A DNA stretch of 64,000 bases from a bacterium (GTDB taxonomy: Bacteria > Armatimonadota > Zipacnadia > Zipacnadales > UBA11051): positions 1 to 64,000 of the forward strand of contig JAUVVY010000020.1 in NCBI GenBank assembly GCA_030604405.1. The letters are read 5' to 3'. Positions 4,844-13,702 of the stretch are shown here, in pieces. A program made the position numbers and the translations under genes. Position 1 is the stretch's first letter, and every line of letters begins with the position of its first letter. The notes beneath the pieces were generated by a model that worked only from the letters and a program-made list of their open reading frames with translations, made no database searches and was not told the origin of the DNA.

Positions 4844-7579
4844 CTAATCCAATTTCCAGTATGTGATGCCGTTTTCCACCGGCTCCGGCCATTCGGACTT
4901 CGGATGGCTCTGTACGCGGTACTGCCCATCCTCGGTGCGCTCGGCCAGGAGCGTGTTGACGATGGTGAAGTTGCACTCGCCCTGGATGCCCCAGCCCGGG
5001 TAGTAGTGCAGCTTGGTCAGGGCGCCATCGTCTTCGATGGTGATGCCCGCGTCTTCCTGAAGCACGATAAGTGAACCGCCTTCAGCAAGCGTTTCGATGC
5101 GGTCAATCAGGATGCTCTGCACCAGCTCGTCGCCATAATGCAGTATTACCGGCGCGCCGTTGAGGCTGCCATCAGTAGGCAATTGCGCGGCGGTCTGCAG
5201 GGCGTCGAGTTCGTCTCCGGTCTCTTTACGCCGGGTGTCGGTTATGATGCCGGTGTAGGCGGCAATGTTGTCGGTGATACTGAGGTCGCCAGCCTCGAGC
5301 TGGGCCAGTCCTACGCCGAAGGCACGCGTGATGGCGCCGTCGGGGGCGGTGCGCACGTGCACGGCCCTGCCGCGCACCTGCACCGGCATGCCCGCTCCCA
5401 CGTACAAAGCAGCGTTGTCGGCCTGCGGGTCAAAGCAGCTTATGAAGAGGTCCCTGGTGCCGTCGGCGAGGTTGATCTGTACACCTGCGTCCATGACATC
5501 GGCAGTGACCATCTGCGTCGGCTCAACGCTTGCGATCCTTGGCTGCTCGTCTGCGCCCCAGAACTCGTGTACTGCAACAAAGAGCGAACTGTAAGCGCTG
5601 TGGCGGACGAAGGTAAATGGGTTGTAGCCTTTGCGGCGCATGGCCGGCCCGCGGCCGATGTAAAGCTGGCTGCCTTCGGGCATCATCAGCCAGTGCCTGC
5701 TCTGTTTACCGGTCTCATATGCGAAGCTGAAATTGGCGACGCCGTCCAGACTTGCCACTTTCAACTGGTCAATGTACTTGTGCTGCTTGCCCTCTGTGTC
5801 GGTCAGCGTCAGATCGGTCTCTGCGGTGTAAGGGAATTCGAGGCATCCGTGCAGCATCCAGTCGTGCAGTTCGCCGCCCCTTACGCGGAATACGTCCACC
5901 AGATAGGTGTGCTGGTCATCTATCTCGATCATTGCCAGGGTGCGGCGGTAGAGGTCGGCCAGATCGTGGTAAGCCTCCTCGCCCTGGGCTTCTGAGATCT
6001 GCACCGCAGCGTACTCTGCGGCGAAGAAGCGGAGCTTGCCATCGGTGAGGCTGTCACCGTGACCATAGGCCCGGTAGCGCGGGTTGGGGAAGGGGAAGGC
6101 GTCAATCTCAGTGATCTTGCGACGGTGGCTGCTGAGGCGGCTCAACTGGTTGGTTTCGTTTATAACAACCGTGTTCTGGCCGGCGGCCATCGAGTGCCAC
6201 TCGCGGGTCGAGACATCATCGGGTATGGGGCGATAGCGCGTAGAGCTGATCATCTCCTGGCCCTGGCTCCAGGCGATGATGTGCAGAGAATCGAAATGCT
6301 CGTGGCCGTGCATACCTGAGAAGTGCAGATGGGCCTGCTGCTGGTTTTCGCCCTCGCCCTTCGCCATTATCGCATGGCCCATGCAGCCGAATAGCTTCGG
6401 ATTTGAGTGCGTCTTGGGCGGCATCCACCAGCACTGCTGGACGAAGGCAGTGTCGTGTATCACGGTGCAGATGCGGTTGGGCAAGGTGACCTTGCCGAGG
6501 GAGTCCCACATGCGCCTGAACTGGGTGGCGAATTTCTCGGTGAGGTTGAGATTGTCGAAGCGCGTCCCGTCCTGCTTACTGACAAAGCCCGGGGGATCGG
6601 AATAGCCGTTGAGCAGCGCCGGCACGGACCTGGTGATGCCCACCGTAATATCCTTGTGATAAGATGGCGTTCCCTCGTGCCAGAATCCGCTGACGTAAAA
6701 GCCGTAGTGGAGCAGGTTGGCCATCCGCTGCACGACGTGGTGGATGTACTCGGGCTGTGGCAAGAGCAGGCCGAATTGCGAATAGCTTCTGAGGTCGTAG
6801 TGGTCGAGATTGCCATATGTAGGCACGAATGTTTCGTTGAAGTCAATGTGGTGGCGCAACATGCTTGCGATATTCTCGCGGGTGCTGACCTCTTCCATCA
6901 TGCCGCTGTCGTAAATCAGGTCATAGGAGTACAGTAGCGGGAAGGCCCGGCCGACGAAGCTGGGAATCCAGGCTCCGTAGAAACCGGTCGCGTCCCAGCG
7001 CCACTTGAAGCGCTCATCATCCTGTGAAAAGCGCCCTTCGCCAGTGCGCTCCTTCAGCGGCCACTTGCGGATCACCTGATTGTAGCGGTCGAGAATTATC
7101 GCTGCCTGGCGCGCGGCCTGCTCGTCGCCGGTGAGATGATACAGCAGCGCCAGGTCGTAGGCGTGCTCCTTCATCTGTACGTTGAGCGGGTTGAAAGCGC
7201 CCTCTTCGTCCATCTGCTCGCGAAGACGCTTCTCGGACATGTTGTAGTATTCGGCGGTGGCCGCCTTGAGCATGGCGACGGCGATCTGCAGGCACTCTTC
7301 GCTGCCATTGCCCTCGAAGACTCTTATGGCGTTGGTCAGATGGGAGTAGAAGTCGCGGTTTTCGGAGTTTATGCGGCCGCCAGACTTATAGGTAGCCGCC
7401 AGAGCTTCAGCGCCCCTGGCAAAATCGCCCTTGCGTGCTTCATACAGCTTGTCGGGGTCGGCAGTCGTCAGCACCGTGAAGGGCGGCTTAGTGAGGAAGG
7501 GGCGCTGCTTAGGCTCTGCCTGGCCGAAGGCTATTGCGCACAGCCCGGCCAGCATGAATACGCACATTAGCAGTCTCAC
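4844..7579 (-). CDS. Secreted heparinase II/III-like polysaccharide lyase
   Basis: A 911-residue exported protein with signal peptide (hydrophobic residues 3-18, cleavage near AFGQA). The N-terminal half is helical, as in the (alpha/alpha)6 toroid of heparinase II/III family lyases. It includes the aromatic/His stretch around 300-310 (FWHEGTPSYH), where the catalytic Tyr/His of this family lie. The second half starts with HLHFSGMHGHEHFDSL (417-432), the typical His-rich metal-binding motif at the toroid/beta-sandwich boundary. It probably cleaves an acidic polysaccharide by beta-elimination in the periplasm or outside the cell. GTG start preceded by AAGGAG. It sits 20 bases after the membrane-anchored protein gene and 8 bases before the phosphoesterase gene. 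Which polysaccharide is unknown. Confidence 0.87.
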   Translation of the reverse strand: MRLLMCVFMLAGLCAIAFGQAEPKQRPFLTKPPFTVLTTADPDKLYEARKGDFARGAEALAATYKSGGRINSENRDFYSHLTNAIRVFEGNGSEECLQIAVAMLKAATAEYYNMSEKRLREQMDEEGAFNPLNVQMKEHAYDLALLYHLTGDEQAARQAAIILDRYNQVIRKWPLKERTGEGRFSQDDERFKWRWDATGFYGAWIPSFVGRAFPLLYSYDLIYDSGMMEEVSTRENIASMLRHHIDFNETFVPTYGNLDHYDLRSYSQFGLLLPQPEYIHHVVQRMANLLHYGFYVSGFWHEGTPSYHKDITVGITRSVPALLNGYSDPPGFVSKQDGTRFDNLNLTEKFATQFRRMWDSLGKVTLPNRICTVIHDTAFVQQCWWMPPKTHSNPKLFGCMGHAIMAKGEGENQQQAHLHFSGMHGHEHFDSLHIIAWSQGQEMISSTRYRPIPDDVSTREWHSMAAGQNTVVINETNQLSRLSSHRRKITEIDAFPFPNPRYRAYGHGDSLTDGKLRFFAAEYAAVQISEAQGEEAYHDLADLYRRTLAMIEIDDQHTYLVDVFRVRGGELHDWMLHGCLEFPYTAETDLTLTDTEGKQHKYIDQLKVASLDGVANFSFAYETGKQSRHWLMMPEGSQLYIGRGPAMRRKGYNPFTFVRHSAYSSLFVAVHEFWGADEQPRIASVEPTQMVTADVMDAGVQINLADGTRDLFISCFDPQADNAALYVGAGMPVQVRGRAVHVRTAPDGAITRAFGVGLAQLEAGDLSITDNIAAYTGIITDTRRKETGDELDALQTAAQLPTDGSLNGAPVILHYGDELVQSILIDRIETLAEGGSLIVLQEDAGITIEDDGALTKLHYYPGWGIQGECNFTIVNTLLAERTEDGQYRVQSHPKSEWPEPVENGITYWKLD

Positions 7580-7599
7580 TGTTATCTCCTTTTAGCAGC

Positions 7600-8280
7600 T
7601 TAGGGTGCAGACCAGATGGTCTGCTGGTCCTTGTCTCGAAGTCTAAGCTCTGGGCTCCCCTCGGAATCCACTTCGACACGTGCGCGTTGAATGCCTCTGG
7701 AATCCGAAATCCACAGCCCCCCGGTTCCGTCGGCGAGCCGCCTGAGGCCAGTGCTTCCCTGGCCGTCCGCTTCCTCCAGGACGATAGTCGCATCGTCGTC
7801 CTCATCTACCGCCAGCCGGATGCCGCCGCCGTCGCCCGTGCCACGGATCCGCAAGTGCGCATACTGCTCCTCCACGCTGCACTGTATGACTTTTCCACCG
7901 CGCTGGAGCATCAAGTATGGGACCCCGTTGGGTGCCACGGAAGCCGAGACGGTGCCGGAGCCTTTCTGGCCATTGGTCAGGCTGAGGCGCGGTAGCACCG
8001 TGTCCCCGTCGCCCAGTAAAAGGCGGATGTTGGCTCTGCTGCTGGGATCGTTCACGCGCAGACCCCAAGGGCCAAGGCTCGCGCGTGTATTGCCTTGCTC
8101 GTCCACGATGAGCAGCCGATGCGCTACAAGGGTTTCTTTTCCCGGCTCGGGAGCCAGACCTGAGATGTTCGCCTGCGCGGGCGCGGGTGTACTCCGGAGC
8201 ACTCGATCAGAGACCATCCCGCCGATCACTCCCGACACTACGACGGCCACCAGCACTATCCAGAACTGTTTGCCGCTCAT
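7600..8280 (-). CDS. Membrane-anchored protein of unknown function
   Basis: A 226-residue protein with one N-terminal transmembrane or signal-anchor segment (FWIVLVAVVVSGVIGGMVSD) and a soluble domain rich in short beta-strands. The domain repeats a pattern of the type R-x-x-L/V-G/D-x-x-G-x-P (TRASLGPWGLR, RARVEVDSEGSPELRLRDKD). This resembles uncharacterised proteins with DGxPxLxLxD repeats. Start ATG 8280 has AAGGAG nine bases upstream. It is the first gene of an apparent operon with the heparinase-like lyase and the phosphoesterase. No function is assigned. Confidence 0.75.
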   Translation of the reverse strand: MSGKQFWIVLVAVVVSGVIGGMVSDRVLRSTPAPAQANISGLAPEPGKETLVAHRLLIVDEQGNTRASLGPWGLRVNDPSSRANIRLLLGDGDTVLPRLSLTNGQKGSGTVSASVAPNGVPYLMLQRGGKVIQCSVEEQYAHLRIRGTGDGGGIRLAVDEDDDATIVLEEADGQGSTGLRRLADGTGGLWISDSRGIQRARVEVDSEGSPELRLRDKDQQTIWSAP

Positions 8281-8502
8281 GTAAAATCACTCCTTCACCT
8301 TACCGCAGATTGGTTACGATAGTCATCACGCGTGGTACGAGCTGTGCCTCGTGCTACTCCGACTTCGCCAAAGCCCCCGCCTTCGACAAGGCTACGGCGG
8401 ACGAGACGGTGGGCAAGCCCAGGCAATTGATAATGAGATAAATGAAAAAGCGCAGCCGGTCAGTCCATCCCCGCTACGCTCTTGTTGTGCTCAGACATAT
8501 TC
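8281..8502. other. Intergenic region with degraded repeat
   Basis: No gene. A fragment related to the REP-like family (CCTTCGACAAGGC and GGCAAGCCC) lies at about 8379-8421. I see no clear promoter for the operon to its left. Confidence 0.4.
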
Positions 8503-9078
8503 CTATTCGCCGGCGGCCGAGACCGCTTTCCTGCCGAGCTCTCTGGCCGCGGCCATCACGTCCTCCATCTCCGCCACAGCGCCCCTTTTTCCCGCCGACA
8601 CACAGACATCGCCAATGTATTCGCCGCGCCAGCGTTCGGCCCAGAACGCGATCGGCTCCGTGACCCATTTGCTCTGGTCCTGAGTGGGGTCGCCGTAGGC
8701 GCACAACACGGCCCAGATTTTGCCGGCAAAGCCCTGGTTGAGCCACTCGGCGGCGTAATAGCACGACCAGCGGTCAGCAAAGCACTTCATCTGCGCCGGA
8801 ACGCCCTGCCAATAGACCGGGGCGCCCCAGACCAGTACGTCGGCTTCGATCACCTTGTTCATCACCTTGCGCCAGTCGTCGTCAGCGCGCAGGTCCACCC
8901 TCATACCGAAATCATCGCAGACCTCGGCGATCGGGCGGATGTTGAGATCGTCGAGATAGATCTTCTCGATCTCCGCGCCTGCCTCGGCAGCGCCCTCGAG
9001 GAAGGCGTCGGCCAGACAGTCAGTATTGCCGCCCTTGCGCGGGCTGCCGATGAGTGCTAAGGCTTTCAAGAATATCAC
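8503..9078 (-). CDS. Flavodoxin-like NAD(P)H-dependent FMN reductase
   Basis: A 191-residue flavodoxin-fold protein. The N-terminal FMN-phosphate loop reads LIGSPRKGGNTDCLADAFLEG, followed by IYLDDLNIRPI, and ADVLVWGAPVYWQGVPAQMK is the characteristic second FMN-binding strand of the NADPH-dependent FMN reductase/iron-sulfur flavoprotein group. The CX(n)C iron-sulfur motif of Isf-type proteins is not visible. It probably reduces quinones or other small electron acceptors in the cytosol. Start is GTG 9078 (a TTG nine bases later is an alternative); the ribosome-binding site is weak. It stands alone between two intergenic repeats. Confidence 0.85.
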   Translation of the reverse strand: MIFLKALALIGSPRKGGNTDCLADAFLEGAAEAGAEIEKIYLDDLNIRPIAEVCDDFGMRVDLRADDDWRKVMNKVIEADVLVWGAPVYWQGVPAQMKCFADRWSCYYAAEWLNQGFAGKIWAVLCAYGDPTQDQSKWVTEPIAFWAERWRGEYIGDVCVSAGKRGAVAEMEDVMAAARELGRKAVSAAGE

Positions 9079-9113
9079 ATCGACTATTCTGTCGAATTGG
9101 ACTATATATTGGT

Positions 9114-9141
9114 GTCGGGCTGGGAGCCCGGCCTACGCGAT
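9114..9141. repeat. REP-like palindrome
   Basis: GTCGGGCT (9114-9121), GGG loop and AGCCCGGC (9125-9132), then CTACGCGAT. Same family as the other intergenic palindromes. Confidence 0.65.
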
Positions 9142-9407
9142 AAGTGAAGGACATTCCTGCATCATTGATGAGTAAAATGGAATGTGTAGCAATATTGGAC
9201 AGATAGGCCGTTCATAGATACATAGAGCGGCTTTTGCGAAGGGGCGCAAAATGACACACTGTAATCATGCAACGACCTCGGGCTGGAAAGCTGAGAACGC
9301 GATAACTCGCGTTCTTACCTGACCTGCGCTTGGCGCAGGTCAGGCCGAGCCACGCGTTTTGTGAATTGTTCGGGATAGATGTCAACAGCATGCCACACGA
9401 GCCGGCA
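9142..9407. other. Intergenic region with tandem hairpins after the SPFH gene
   Basis: No gene. Two adjacent perfect hairpins follow the SPFH gene in its direction of transcription. The first is CTGACCTGCGC (9319-9329) pairing with 9333-9343 around a 3-base loop. The second is AGAACGCGA (9294-9302) pairing with 9307-9315 around TAAC. They lack a T-run but are placed where a terminator or 3' stabiliser would be. Confidence 0.5.
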
Positions 9408-10397
9408 CTATATCTCTTTCAGGATTTCGGCCTTGCGGGCGGCGAACTCTTCGTCGGTGATAAGGCCTTTTTCTTTGAGGCTTGCCAGCTTTTCGAGGCG
9501 CTCTTCAACGCTCGCGCCACCACCGGCGGCCGGGGCTTGAGGCTGTTGCTGCATGGCTTGCTGCATGGCGCCCATCATCGCCGCGCCCATGCCGGCTCCT
9601 GCGCCAAGGCCCATGCCGACGCCGGCCGCGCCACCTCCGCCCTCGGCACTGGGTATGTCGCCTATCGCCTGGGCGGTGCGGAACTGCATGAAGCGCTGCA
9701 TATCGCCGACGGCCCCCATGCCGGAGCGGGCGTCAATCATCTCCAGGACGGCTTCGGGCGGAGCGATGGCCTCGATGAGGAAGTCAATAAGCTCGAGGCC
9801 GTAGTTCTCGAAATCCTGGCCGACACGGGCGCGCATGACCTCGCCGAGTTCGTCGTAGTGCTTGGGCAGGTCCAGCACCGTGTCCATAACCTCGCCGAGG
9901 ACGTCGTTAAAGCGCGCGACGATGAAATCGCGCAGCCAGGAGGCCACCAGATCGGTGTCGTACATGTGCTGGGTGCCGACCACCTCATTTACGAAAATCT
10001 GCGAATCGGCCACCCGGCATGTATAGGCGCCGAAGGCCCGCAGGCGGACCATGTCAAGCTCCGAGTCGCGGAATATTACCGGCGATGCGGTACCCCATTT
10101 GAGATCGGTGAAGGTGCGCATGTTGATGAAATAGACCTCGGCCTGAAAGGGCGTCTCGCCGCCGAAGGGGATGTTGATGATGGCCTGCAGCAGCGGGATG
10201 TTGGCCGTGGTGAGGGTGTGGCGCCCCACGTGGAAAACATCGAGCGCCTTGCCGTCGCGGAAAAAGATCGCCTCCTGGCTTTCGCGCACAGTCAACTGTG
10301 CGCCGAGCTTGATGGTACCCGGCCCATACTCCGGCCAGCGGTGGACAATCTCGTTACCGGTGACATCTCGCCATTCGATGACATCTATCGCCGCCAT
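9408..10397 (-). CDS. SPFH/band-7 domain protein with SHOCT tail
   Basis: A 329-residue cytoplasmic protein with no signal peptide. Residues 1-240 form an SPFH-type domain of the virion-core-protein-like/YdjI group (IEWRDVTGNEIVHRWP at the start, then TVRESQEAIFFRDGKALDVF). A Gly/Ala/Gln-rich linker follows (about 250-295). The C-terminus, LEKLASLKEKGLITDEEF, is a SHOCT-type oligomerisation hairpin. Clear AGGAGG eight bases before ATG 10397. It follows two genes for a DUF4178-like protein and a coiled-coil protein on the same strand, separated by a REP-like element. SPFH proteins scaffold membrane microdomains, and similar neighbourhoods occur around PspA/Snf7 envelope-stress genes, so a membrane-stress role is a reasonable inference. 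Confidence 0.88.
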   Translation of the reverse strand: MAAIDVIEWRDVTGNEIVHRWPEYGPGTIKLGAQLTVRESQEAIFFRDGKALDVFHVGRHTLTTANIPLLQAIINIPFGGETPFQAEVYFINMRTFTDLKWGTASPVIFRDSELDMVRLRAFGAYTCRVADSQIFVNEVVGTQHMYDTDLVASWLRDFIVARFNDVLGEVMDTVLDLPKHYDELGEVMRARVGQDFENYGLELIDFLIEAIAPPEAVLEMIDARSGMGAVGDMQRFMQFRTAQAIGDIPSAEGGGGAAGVGMGLGAGAGMGAAMMGAMQQAMQQQPQAPAAGGGASVEERLEKLASLKEKGLITDEEFAARKAEILKEI

Positions 10398-10434
10398 GTT
10401 GGTGTCCTCCTAATAATCGGACCTATGTGATTCG

Positions 10435-10488
10435 GTCGGGCTGCCCTTCGACTTCGCTCAGGGCCGGCGGGAAGCCCGACCTACGCGG
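10435..10488. repeat. REP-like element
   Basis: GTCGGGCT at 10435-10442 and AGCCCGAC at 10473-10480 bracket CCCTTCGACTTCGCTCAGGG, followed by CTACGCGGG. It lies between two genes of the SPFH module. Confidence 0.65.
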
Positions 10489-10528
10489 GATCAATGCGAT
10501 CCATAAGATGATCGCCAACTGCCGGCGA

Positions 10529-10960
10529 TCAAGCCGGGAATAATTCAACAAGCGCACTGTCAATGGGGCTGCCTTTGAATATCTGCGTCCGGCCCCGGTC
10601 TGTGATCGCCAGCGCAATGCTGTTGTCCTCAGCCACATAATAAATGAACTGGCAGCGGCTGAACTGGCGCTCCGAAGGCCCCGTCACCTCGCGCTGAGCA
10701 TCGCCCTGCCGGGCCAAGCGATAGCCCTCGTCGCGCAATTCCGCTACGGCGTCTTCTACTTCAGGCTGACTGAGACTTGTCTCGTAGAGGCGTCCCTTCA
10801 GCCTGGTAATCCATTGGTGTTGCTCCTGGCCCCTTAGCTGCACTTCCCACACGGCCCAGTTGAGGCCCGGGCTGGCATACTTGTCAACACCGACTATCTT
10901 CCCGTCCAGCCCGCGCAACGTGATCTCGTCGCCTACCTTGGCGCTCTTAACATTCGACAT
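10529..10960 (-). CDS. DUF4178-like small protein
   Basis: A 143-residue cytosolic protein. The N-terminal half (VGDEITLRGLDGKIVGV, then AVWEVQLRGQEQHQWITRLKGR) has the strand pattern of DUF4178 domains, which often sit beside PspA and SPFH genes; the match is by eye. The C-terminal half ends in LVELFPA. Start ATG 10960 is chosen because AGGTGG lies five bases upstream; a longer reading frame to 11005 would overlap the upstream gene. It is the middle gene of the three-gene module with the coiled-coil protein (upstream) and the SPFH protein (downstream). Confidence 0.6.
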   Translation of the reverse strand: MSNVKSAKVGDEITLRGLDGKIVGVDKYASPGLNWAVWEVQLRGQEQHQWITRLKGRLYETSLSQPEVEDAVAELRDEGYRLARQGDAQREVTGPSERQFSRCQFIYYVAEDNSIALAITDRGRTQIFKGSPIDSALVELFPA

Positions 10961-11014
10961 GAAGCCACCTGTTTTGAGATGGGAAACAGCCTCGTCGGCA
11001 GCCACGGCGTCTGT

Positions 11015-11539
11015 TCACTCATCGCCGGGGACGACGGAGCTTGCCACTTCGTCGCGGTCGTCAAGCATCTGCTCGAGGTAGTCCATCTCGGCTTCGAGTT
11101 CCGCAAGCAAGTCGTCATAGCCGGCGCTGTCGGCGTCGGCGAGTTCGGCTACTGTAGTGTTCATCTCGGCGATGTGACCCATCAGCGACATGTCATAGTC
11201 GTACATGCGGTCGAGTTCTTCTTCTCCGATCTTGATAGCGTCAAAAAAGCCGGTATAGCCGTAGCTGGCGTGATCAATCCGGTCGCGCAGGGCCGTCATC
11301 CGCCTCTGAGTACGGCCGATCTTTGAGGTCAGCTCAATGTCTGAGGTGCCGGACTCGCGCATGAGGTTCTCAAGCTTGCCCCTGATTGCGTCCAAGAGCT
11401 TGACCAGGTGGTCCCGCACCAGCCTGTCAGCGGTGCGGCGAATCTCTCGTTCACGATAGCCGTCGAAGCCGGGGATGGCCTCGGCCAGCTTCTGGAAAGC
11501 GTTTTCGTCCCCTGTAATACGGTCGCGCATATCTGACAT
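11015..11539 (-). CDS. Coiled-coil protein of the SPFH module
   Basis: A 174-residue, highly charged, mostly helical protein without membrane segments. It contains KLAEAIPGFDGYREREIRR near the N-terminus, heptad-like stretches (LVKLLDAIRGKLENLM, TQRRMTALRDRID), the motif YGYTGFFDAIKIGEEELD and an acidic C-terminus. Similar short proteins accompany SPFH genes in other bacteria as I recall them, but I cannot name the family. Start ATG 11539 is preferred over the longer frame to 11686 because the T-box promoter of the divergent ilv operon occupies 11671-11699. First gene of the module; function unknown. Confidence 0.65.
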   Translation of the reverse strand: MSDMRDRITGDENAFQKLAEAIPGFDGYREREIRRTADRLVRDHLVKLLDAIRGKLENLMRESGTSDIELTSKIGRTQRRMTALRDRIDHASYGYTGFFDAIKIGEEELDRMYDYDMSLMGHIAEMNTTVAELADADSAGYDDLLAELEAEMDYLEQMLDDRDEVASSVVPGDE

Positions 11540-11670
11540 GTACCAGCCCGCCTTTCTCAGAGATGAGTGGAGCCGCCAGTTGAGGTATTCGCCTCGACCA
11601 CGCTCGTTTCCTGCCTGCGGCGGAAAAAAGCCGTCACGGACCTTCAGGCGAAGCTGAGAGGGTCGGCAGC

Positions 11671-11699
11671 TTGACGAATTTACCATGCTGTACTATACT
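11671..11699 (+). promoter_or_regulatory. Sigma70-type promoter of the ilv operon
   Basis: TTGACG (11671-11676) and TATACT (11694-11699) are separated by exactly 17 bases. Transcription would begin near 11706, just before the base of the T-box Stem I at 11723. Confidence 0.8.
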
Positions 11700-11706
11700 G
11701 TGGACA

Positions 11707-11975
11707 ATCTGGATATTGCTTACGGCGAGGAAGGGGAGGAGTAAGCGGATCCCGCCAGGATACAGAGAGCCGTCGTGGTGCTGAGAGACGGCGCCAGCGG
11801 GCCGTTGAATGTCGCCCTCGAGCCGTCAGGCTGAACTGCGCAAGAGTAAGCCTGGCCGGGTGCGCCCGTTATCGCGCTAAAGGGTCCGGTGCAGCCGCAA
11901 GGTTGTGCCGGGAATCCGGGTGGTACCGCAGGAGCTAACAAGCCTCTTGTCCCGTTGTGGATGAGAGGGTTTTTT
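11707..11975 (+). ncRNA. T-box riboswitch leader of ilvD
   Basis: tRNA-sensing leader RNA. Stem I can be drawn from 11723-11730 pairing with 11816-11825. It has an upper helix 11751-11755/11797-11801 and an apical helix GCCGTC (11769-11774) with GACGGC (11787-11792), preceded by the AGAGAG motif. The T-box sequence GGGTGGTACCGC is at 11918-11929, and an intrinsic terminator follows at once. The specifier loop 3' side reads TTGAATGTCGC; by analogy with glyQS (GAA-N-codon-purine), the best specifier is GTC (11811-11813, valine), with CTC (leucine) at 11817-11819 as an alternative. Binding of uncharged tRNA at low amino-acid supply would form the antiterminator and switch on the branched-chain amino acid genes. 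Confidence 0.9.
11943..11975 (+). terminator. T-box intrinsic terminator
   Basis: CCTCTTGTCC (11943-11952) pairs with GGATGAGAGG (11959-11968), including two G-T pairs, and is followed by six T residues (11970-11975). It competes with the antiterminator that uses the T-box sequence just upstream. Confidence 0.88.
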
Positions 11976-12040
11976 GTACCTTGAATATCAGCAATGGTGC
12001 AGGCACGGCATCAGACAGTATTGGGGACGGGGGCAGTCAG

Positions 12041-13702
12041 ATGAAAAAGCATAGTGGACCACTGGTACAAGGCATCAGCCGCGCACCGGCGCGTGCGCTG
12101 CTGCACGCCTGCGGCTTTACGCCCGGACAGCTTTCGGATAATCCATTTATCGGCATCGCCAACAGCTACAGCGATATCGTGCCGGGGCACGTCGGAATGC
12201 AGCGGCTGTTGCGCGGTGTCGAGCTGGGCATCGCCGCCGCTGGCGGGACTCCTATGAGTTTTGGCATTCCTGCCATCTGCGATGGCGTGGCGATGGGCCA
12301 TGCCGGCATGTTCTACAGCCTGCCCAGCCGCGAACTAATCGCCGACAGCGTCGAGAGCATGGCGATCGCGCACGGCTTCGACGGCCTGGTACTGCTAACG
12401 AATTGCGACAAGATCACTCCGGGGATGCTGATGGCCGCCGGCCGGCTTGATATACCGGCTATTGCCATCACCGCCGGCCCGATGCACTCTGGCCGACTGG
12501 CGGGCAGGCCACTCTCGCTCGTCCGCGACACCTTCGAGGCCTTCAATAAGGCCGAGCGAGGCGTGATTACTGAGGCAGAACTCCACGAAGTGGAGATCGA
12601 AGCCTGCCCCGGCCCCGGAGCGTGCCAGGGCCTCTACACGGCCAATACGATGGCCTGCGTGACAGAGGCGATGGGGATGAGCCTGGTCGGGTGCGGCACG
12701 GCTCTGGCCGGTATGGCCAAGAAGGAGCGGCTGGCCTACGATACGGGCGTGGCCGCCTGCCGGCTGGTCGAGGAGGACATCACCGCCCGGCAGATCATCA
12801 CCGAGGCCAGCATCAGGAACGCCATCCGCATGGATATGACCCTGGGCGGCTCGACAAACTCGTGCCTGCACATTGCGGCGATCGCCTACGAGGCGGGTGT
12901 GGACATAAACCTGGAAGTCTTTGACCAGCTATCCAAAAAGACGCCGCAGATAGCGCACTTGCGTCCGGGTGGCGACTATATGATGGAAGACTTGGACTGG
13001 GCAGGCGGCATAGCCGGGGCCTTCTCGGTGCTGGCCGAGTTACTGGATGACAACATCACGGTCTCGGGCAAGACTGTTGCTGAGATCGCCAGCGAGGGCT
13101 GCGTGACCGACAGTGATGTGATCCGCTCCCTGGACAACGCCTACCGGGAAGAGGGTGGTATCGCCGTCCTGCGCGGTAATCTGTGCCCGGACGGTGCGGT
13201 TGTCAAGCAGTCCGCGGTGTCGGAGACGATGCGCAAGTTCCGCGGGACGGCGGTGTGCTTCGATTCAGAGGAAGAGGCGCTGGCGGCTATCATTGCCGAC
13301 ACTATTGCGGACGGCTCCTGGGTCATCATCCGCTACGAGGGTCCCAGAGGCGGCCCCGGGATGCGCGAGATGCTCAACCCGACGGCGACACTGACGGGCA
13401 TGGGCAAAGAGGAGTCAATAGGGCTGCTGACCGATGGGCGCTTCTCAGGTGGCACGCGCGGCCCCTGCGTCGGTCACATCTCGCCGGAGGCGGCGGCCGG
13501 TGGCACGCTGGCACTGGTGCAAGACGGCGATGAAATAGCCATTGACCTGGATGCTCGGAGCCTGGAGCTTCTGGTGGATGAGGCAGAACTGGCCAGGCGT
13601 CGCGAAGCCTGGCAGGCGGCAGAGCCGAAGATCACAACCGGCTGGCTGGCGCGCTATGCACGCTGTGTGCAGTCGGCGGCTTCTGGCGCGGTAATGAAAT
13701 AA
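12041..13702 (+). CDS. ilvD: Dihydroxy-acid dehydratase
   Basis: Dehydrates 2,3-dihydroxy-isovalerate and 2,3-dihydroxy-3-methylvalerate to the 2-keto acids of valine and isoleucine. 553 residues, full length. Signature motifs: [12 protein letters not shown] (Cys122), [16 protein letters not shown], and [15 protein letters not shown] near the C-terminus. The early motif reads [10 protein letters not shown], with Gly-His where [2Fe-2S] enzymes have Cys (PCN). This matches the E. coli-type oxygen-sensitive [4Fe-4S] enzyme. Start ATG 12041 has a G-rich Shine-Dalgarno upstream. First gene after the T-box leader and therefore under tRNA control. Confidence 0.96.

Follow-up and report, generated by a model that had tools for sequence, protein, structure and literature searches.

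Does an SPFH protein that is encoded beside a highly charged coiled-coil protein, at a locus where no PspA gene is found, belong to a PspA-type membrane-stress module, and does the coiled-coil protein take the place of PspA? This question is raised by a stretch of 64,000 nucleotides of an Armatimonadota contig (the whole stretch that was analysed, hereafter the window), in which an initial annotation had described a SHOCT-tailed SPFH protein, a DUF4178-like protein and a coiled-coil protein (hereafter CC) as a candidate module of this kind.

Locus organization and domain content

As described, the three genes lie in a row on one strand, in the order CC, DUF4178 gene, SPFH gene, all on the minus strand and spanning positions 9408-11539. 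The features of the locus are as follows:

11539-11015, minus strand: CC gene, encoding a soluble helical protein of 174 amino acids (36% charged)
10965-10970, minus strand: Shine-Dalgarno sequence AGGTGG ahead of the DUF4178 gene
10960-10529, minus strand: DUF4178 gene, 143 amino acids, PF13785
10406-10411, minus strand: Shine-Dalgarno sequence AGGAGG ahead of the SPFH gene
10397-9408, minus strand: SPFH gene, 329 amino acids, PF13421 Band_7_1 and PF09851 SHOCT
8503-9078, minus strand: NADPH-dependent FMN reductase gene (PF03358), downstream neighbour of the SPFH gene

The intergenic gaps are 54 nucleotides (CC/DUF4178) and 131 nucleotides (DUF4178/SPFH), and the ribosome-binding sites of the DUF4178 and SPFH genes are both good. 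Upstream, a T-box leader (RF00230, 106 bits, 11719-11957, plus strand) precedes ilvD (dihydroxy-acid dehydratase) and heads an ilvD-ilvB-ilvN...ilvC run divergent from CC; because this divergent run has its own leader, the trio is probably a separate transcription unit. A promoter scan of the minus strand found no sigma-70-like site for the trio. All three genes are under purifying selection (dN/dS = 0.04 to 0.32 against genome G001). A GC-rich hairpin-like sequence (GCCCTTCGACTTCGCTCAGGGC with its flanks) occupies positions 10437-10492 between the DUF4178 and SPFH genes and is present as a single copy in the window. The host genome comprises 4.4 Mb in 96 contigs, with the trio on contig C74; PADLOC reported no defence system, and no plasmid-borne relatives were found.

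The domain assignments of the initial annotation are borne out. The SPFH protein matches Band_7_1 with 218 bits (cut-off 24) over positions 1-210 of 211, followed by a linker rich in Gly, Ala and Met and by a SHOCT domain at the C terminus (34.7 bits, cut-off 27), and the middle protein matches PF13785 with 36.6 bits (cut-off 25). The predicted DUF4178 structure is mostly beta (pLDDT 92.6), and its fold has no convincing match in the PDB. The SPFH protein lacks any hydrophobic stretch of the kind seen in transmembrane helices, and no transmembrane segment was found in CC, in the DUF4178 protein or in the SPFH protein. Three proteins devoid of such segments would suit a different, cytosolic function of CC and SPFH unrelated to membrane stress (for instance regulating a protease, or controlling redox state with the FMN reductase), as would the FMN reductase gene itself. 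This gene may be a fourth member of the module; of 33 related loci, 14 have it downstream on the same strand, in families f1, f5 and f6. We nevertheless judge a cytosolic function unlikely, because membership in the SPFH family points to the membrane, as do the membrane partner with zinc ribbons that sister lineages carry and an NfeD-stomatin insertion in family f4, both described below.

Relationship of CC to PspA and ESCRT-III proteins

CC resembles PspA and Vipp1, which belong to the ESCRT-III proteins, in being helical, soluble and a neighbour of SPFH. It is also charged, and its position and partners are like those in Bacillus subtilis pspA-ydjGHI. Such likenesses favour the proposal of the initial annotation that CC substitutes for PspA, in which case the SPFH protein would recruit it as a divergent polymer of the ESCRT-III type. 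The profile comparison that the initial annotation had suggested for the 174-residue protein speaks against this proposal: hhalign gave a probability of 1.9% for CC against 27 PspA proteins of the phylum and 0.3 to 0.5% against the two halves of that set, whereas the control of one PspA half against the other gave 99.9%, and a Pfam scan of CC returned no match to PspA_IM30. The AlphaFold2 model of CC shows a short bundle of four helices and lacks the long hairpin of PspA (mean pLDDT 77, which is moderate; pTM 0.70), and no ESCRT-III chain appeared among its best 50 Foldseek hits. By the profiles, CC is thus not detectably homologous to PspA, and by the structural search an ESCRT-III fold is rejected, the latter as judged from a predicted model of moderate confidence. 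More generally, no PDB match to the CC model had an E value below 0.001, and its relatives among solved structures are weak, chance-level matches only.

The genomic distribution of PspA bears on the same proposal. Canonical PspA is absent from the locus, as the initial annotation held, but not from the genome, which carries three PspA genes on contigs C36, C57 and C78, none of them adjoining the locus. These three PspA-family proteins of the window's genome (G000) are divergent, and none is encoded on a contig with Band_7_1 matches. Family f3, in which 14 of 15 genomes have CC and 1 of 15 has PspA, favours substitution; against this, families f1, f4 and f5 mostly hold CC and PspA together. Taking profiles, model and distribution together, we find substitution for PspA improbable. 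Since f3 keeps the CC-SPFH pair almost entirely without PspA, the pair is independent of PspA.

CC does have identifiable relatives. The CC alignment contains an invariant set of residues, PGxxGYxxxxxRRxxD, and a nearly invariant YGYxG loop, and all 33 aligned CC proteins are matched by the profile NF047596 (LIMLP_15305), with a best E value of 4e-16. The CC protein of the window scores 44.9 bits (E = 1e-11), far under the equivalog cut-off of 210 bits. Judged by these profile matches, CC is homologous to the NF047596 family as a distant branch of its superfamily and not as an equivalog. The family takes its name, LIMLP_15305, from a Leptospira locus tag.

Conservation of the CC-SPFH pair and variation around it

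Across 41 genomes of the window's order, CC is present in 36 and a full-length SPFH protein in 35, and wherever one contig holds both, CC lies upstream of SPFH on the same strand. No related locus showing both genes departs from this order, so the arrangement is not a product of chance. Among the remaining genomes, G002 and G011 show the SPFH side only, on contigs that end there; CC is cut by a contig end in G039; G038 and G012 carry, respectively, a 31-residue fragment of CC and a truncated CC, each without SPFH; and G022, G025 and G032 have neither gene. The pair also occurs in five genomes outside the order (G043, G044, G076, G096 and G112). In a sample of 151 genomes from the phylum, CC was found in 20 of the 40 with full-length Band_7_1 and in none of the 111 without it (Fisher p = 3e-14, uncorrected for phylogeny). 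CC and SPFH form an ancient, near-obligate gene pair, and the co-occurrence analysis that the initial annotation had suggested supports their association, though the conserved neighbourhood could reflect co-expression only. The initial annotation had staked the module on an ESCRT-III-like fold and on conservation of the genes together; the predicted CC model lacks the former, and the latter holds for CC and SPFH. As a unit of three, the trio is less constant: the CC-SPFH order is kept throughout, but only 15 of the 33 related loci have a gene between the two.

The C-terminal tail of the SPFH protein varies as well. CC-linked SPFH proteins mostly end in a zinc ribbon, usually a double one. The SHOCT tail, which the initial annotation had noted, is present here but specific to the window's genus; since it is confined to G000-G003 and the ribbon is retained in G004, of the same genus, it is most simply explained as a recent swap for the zinc ribbon. 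In the SPFH tree, CC-linked and zinc-ribbon-linked proteins are split by a branch with 100/100 support. The phylum's remaining Band_7_1 proteins group apart, and their genomes carry a zinc-ribbon membrane partner (A4), which combines two zinc ribbons with a hydrophobic segment at its C terminus. Of the 18 genomes with this non-CC SPFH clade, 17 have A4, as do all five CC genomes from outside the window's order, and in G112 it adjoins CC-SPFH; within the order, the window's genome included, no match to A4 was better than E = 1e-5. This distribution is read most simply as the addition of CC to an SPFH-zinc-ribbon system, followed by loss of the membrane protein in the window's order. An origin of CC as a replacement of the zinc-ribbon membrane protein is ruled out, as five genomes hold both.

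The gene between CC and SPFH is present in f1 (except G005), f4, f5 and one f2 genome and absent from f3, f6 and f9. Pfam recognises DUF4178 in some of these middle genes; several relatives score under the cut-off, and those of loci L025, L027 and L050 are too diverged for confident naming. All DUF4178 matches within the window's order lie at the CC-SPFH locus, where the DUF4178 gene is an accessory that some families have and others lack. At two f4 loci (L042 and L053), NfeD and stomatin-like genes are inserted between DUF4178 and SPFH, giving two SPFH proteins per run; NfeD and stomatin-like genes are membrane-module genes.

Elsewhere in the phylum, DUF4178 accompanies DUF350 and spermine synthase, a described context of this domain (PMC11237479). 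At one locus (L142 in G173, positions 6986-12807), a Band_7_1 SPFH gene stands divergently beside a run of two DUF4178 genes, DUF350 and spermine synthase, linking two known module types. The trio could accordingly be seen as the remnant of a polyamine-linked module (DUF4178, DUF350, spermine synthase) whose enzymes were lost, a view favoured by the related SPFH gene in G173, by three other genomes of the phylum with DUF4178 in that operon, and by the description of a band-7/SHOCT variant of the polyamine operon (PMC11237479). Such an origin seems to us very doubtful, given that CC-SPFH loci without DUF4178 are common, deep-branching ones included, and that DUF350 is found above cut-off nowhere in the window's order and was not found in the window's genome. 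For the window's order, a polyamine link is rejected on this lack of DUF350.

A proposed PspA-independent module and its known counterparts

We consider it somewhat probable that the locus is a YdjI-type SPFH module in which CC serves as the dedicated helical partner and which works without PspA. The SPFH protein, whose architecture is YdjI-like as read from its sequence, would assemble into a large ring or cage on the membrane's inner face. With its gene first in the same operon, CC would bind the SPFH protein as an adaptor or assembly regulator. Docking of the complex to membrane proteins or clients may fall to the tail, in which zinc ribbon and SHOCT are interchangeable, and to the DUF4178 protein, which is small and beta-rich. 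The result would be membrane organisation or maintenance with no need of PspA, and we hypothesize a membrane-stress role for the module. More speculatively, and with appreciably less confidence, CC might be the founding member of a new class of obligate SPFH adaptors, small helical proteins that would arrange SPFH rings at the membrane in the absence of any ESCRT-III protein, at least in Armatimonadota and, as homology suggests, in Leptospira, so that these lineages would have PspA-independent membrane maintenance.

YdjI-type SPFH proteins are known chiefly for linking PspA to the membrane. A large lineage that pairs such a protein with an unrelated helical partner, often without PspA, would show the scaffold's own role, and the pairing would supply a testable function for an unnamed protein family that is also present in Leptospira.

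Among known systems, SPFH and DUF4178 are partners in PspA-type and polyamine modules (PMC11237479), in agreement with the initial annotation as regards the former. The band-7/SHOCT and DUF4178 polyamine operons share with the window locus an SPFH protein with SHOCT and a DUF4178 protein; the window locus differs in having CC and in being without DUF350, spermine synthase and PspA. The closer comparison is with B. subtilis, in which PF13421 is also present. YdjI is a soluble SPFH protein with a low-complexity region and a zinc finger near its C terminus (PMC8581546), which matches the plan of most CC-linked SPFH proteins, taken as the ancestral one; the window's genus has this plan (linker, no transmembrane helix), but with SHOCT in the position of the YdjI zinc ribbon. 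Unlike pspA-ydjGHI, the window locus has no YdjG/H-like membrane protein. Both are small operons in which the SPFH protein has a helical partner, but in B. subtilis that partner is PspA, to which CC shows no sequence-profile or fold relationship, and in the window it is CC.
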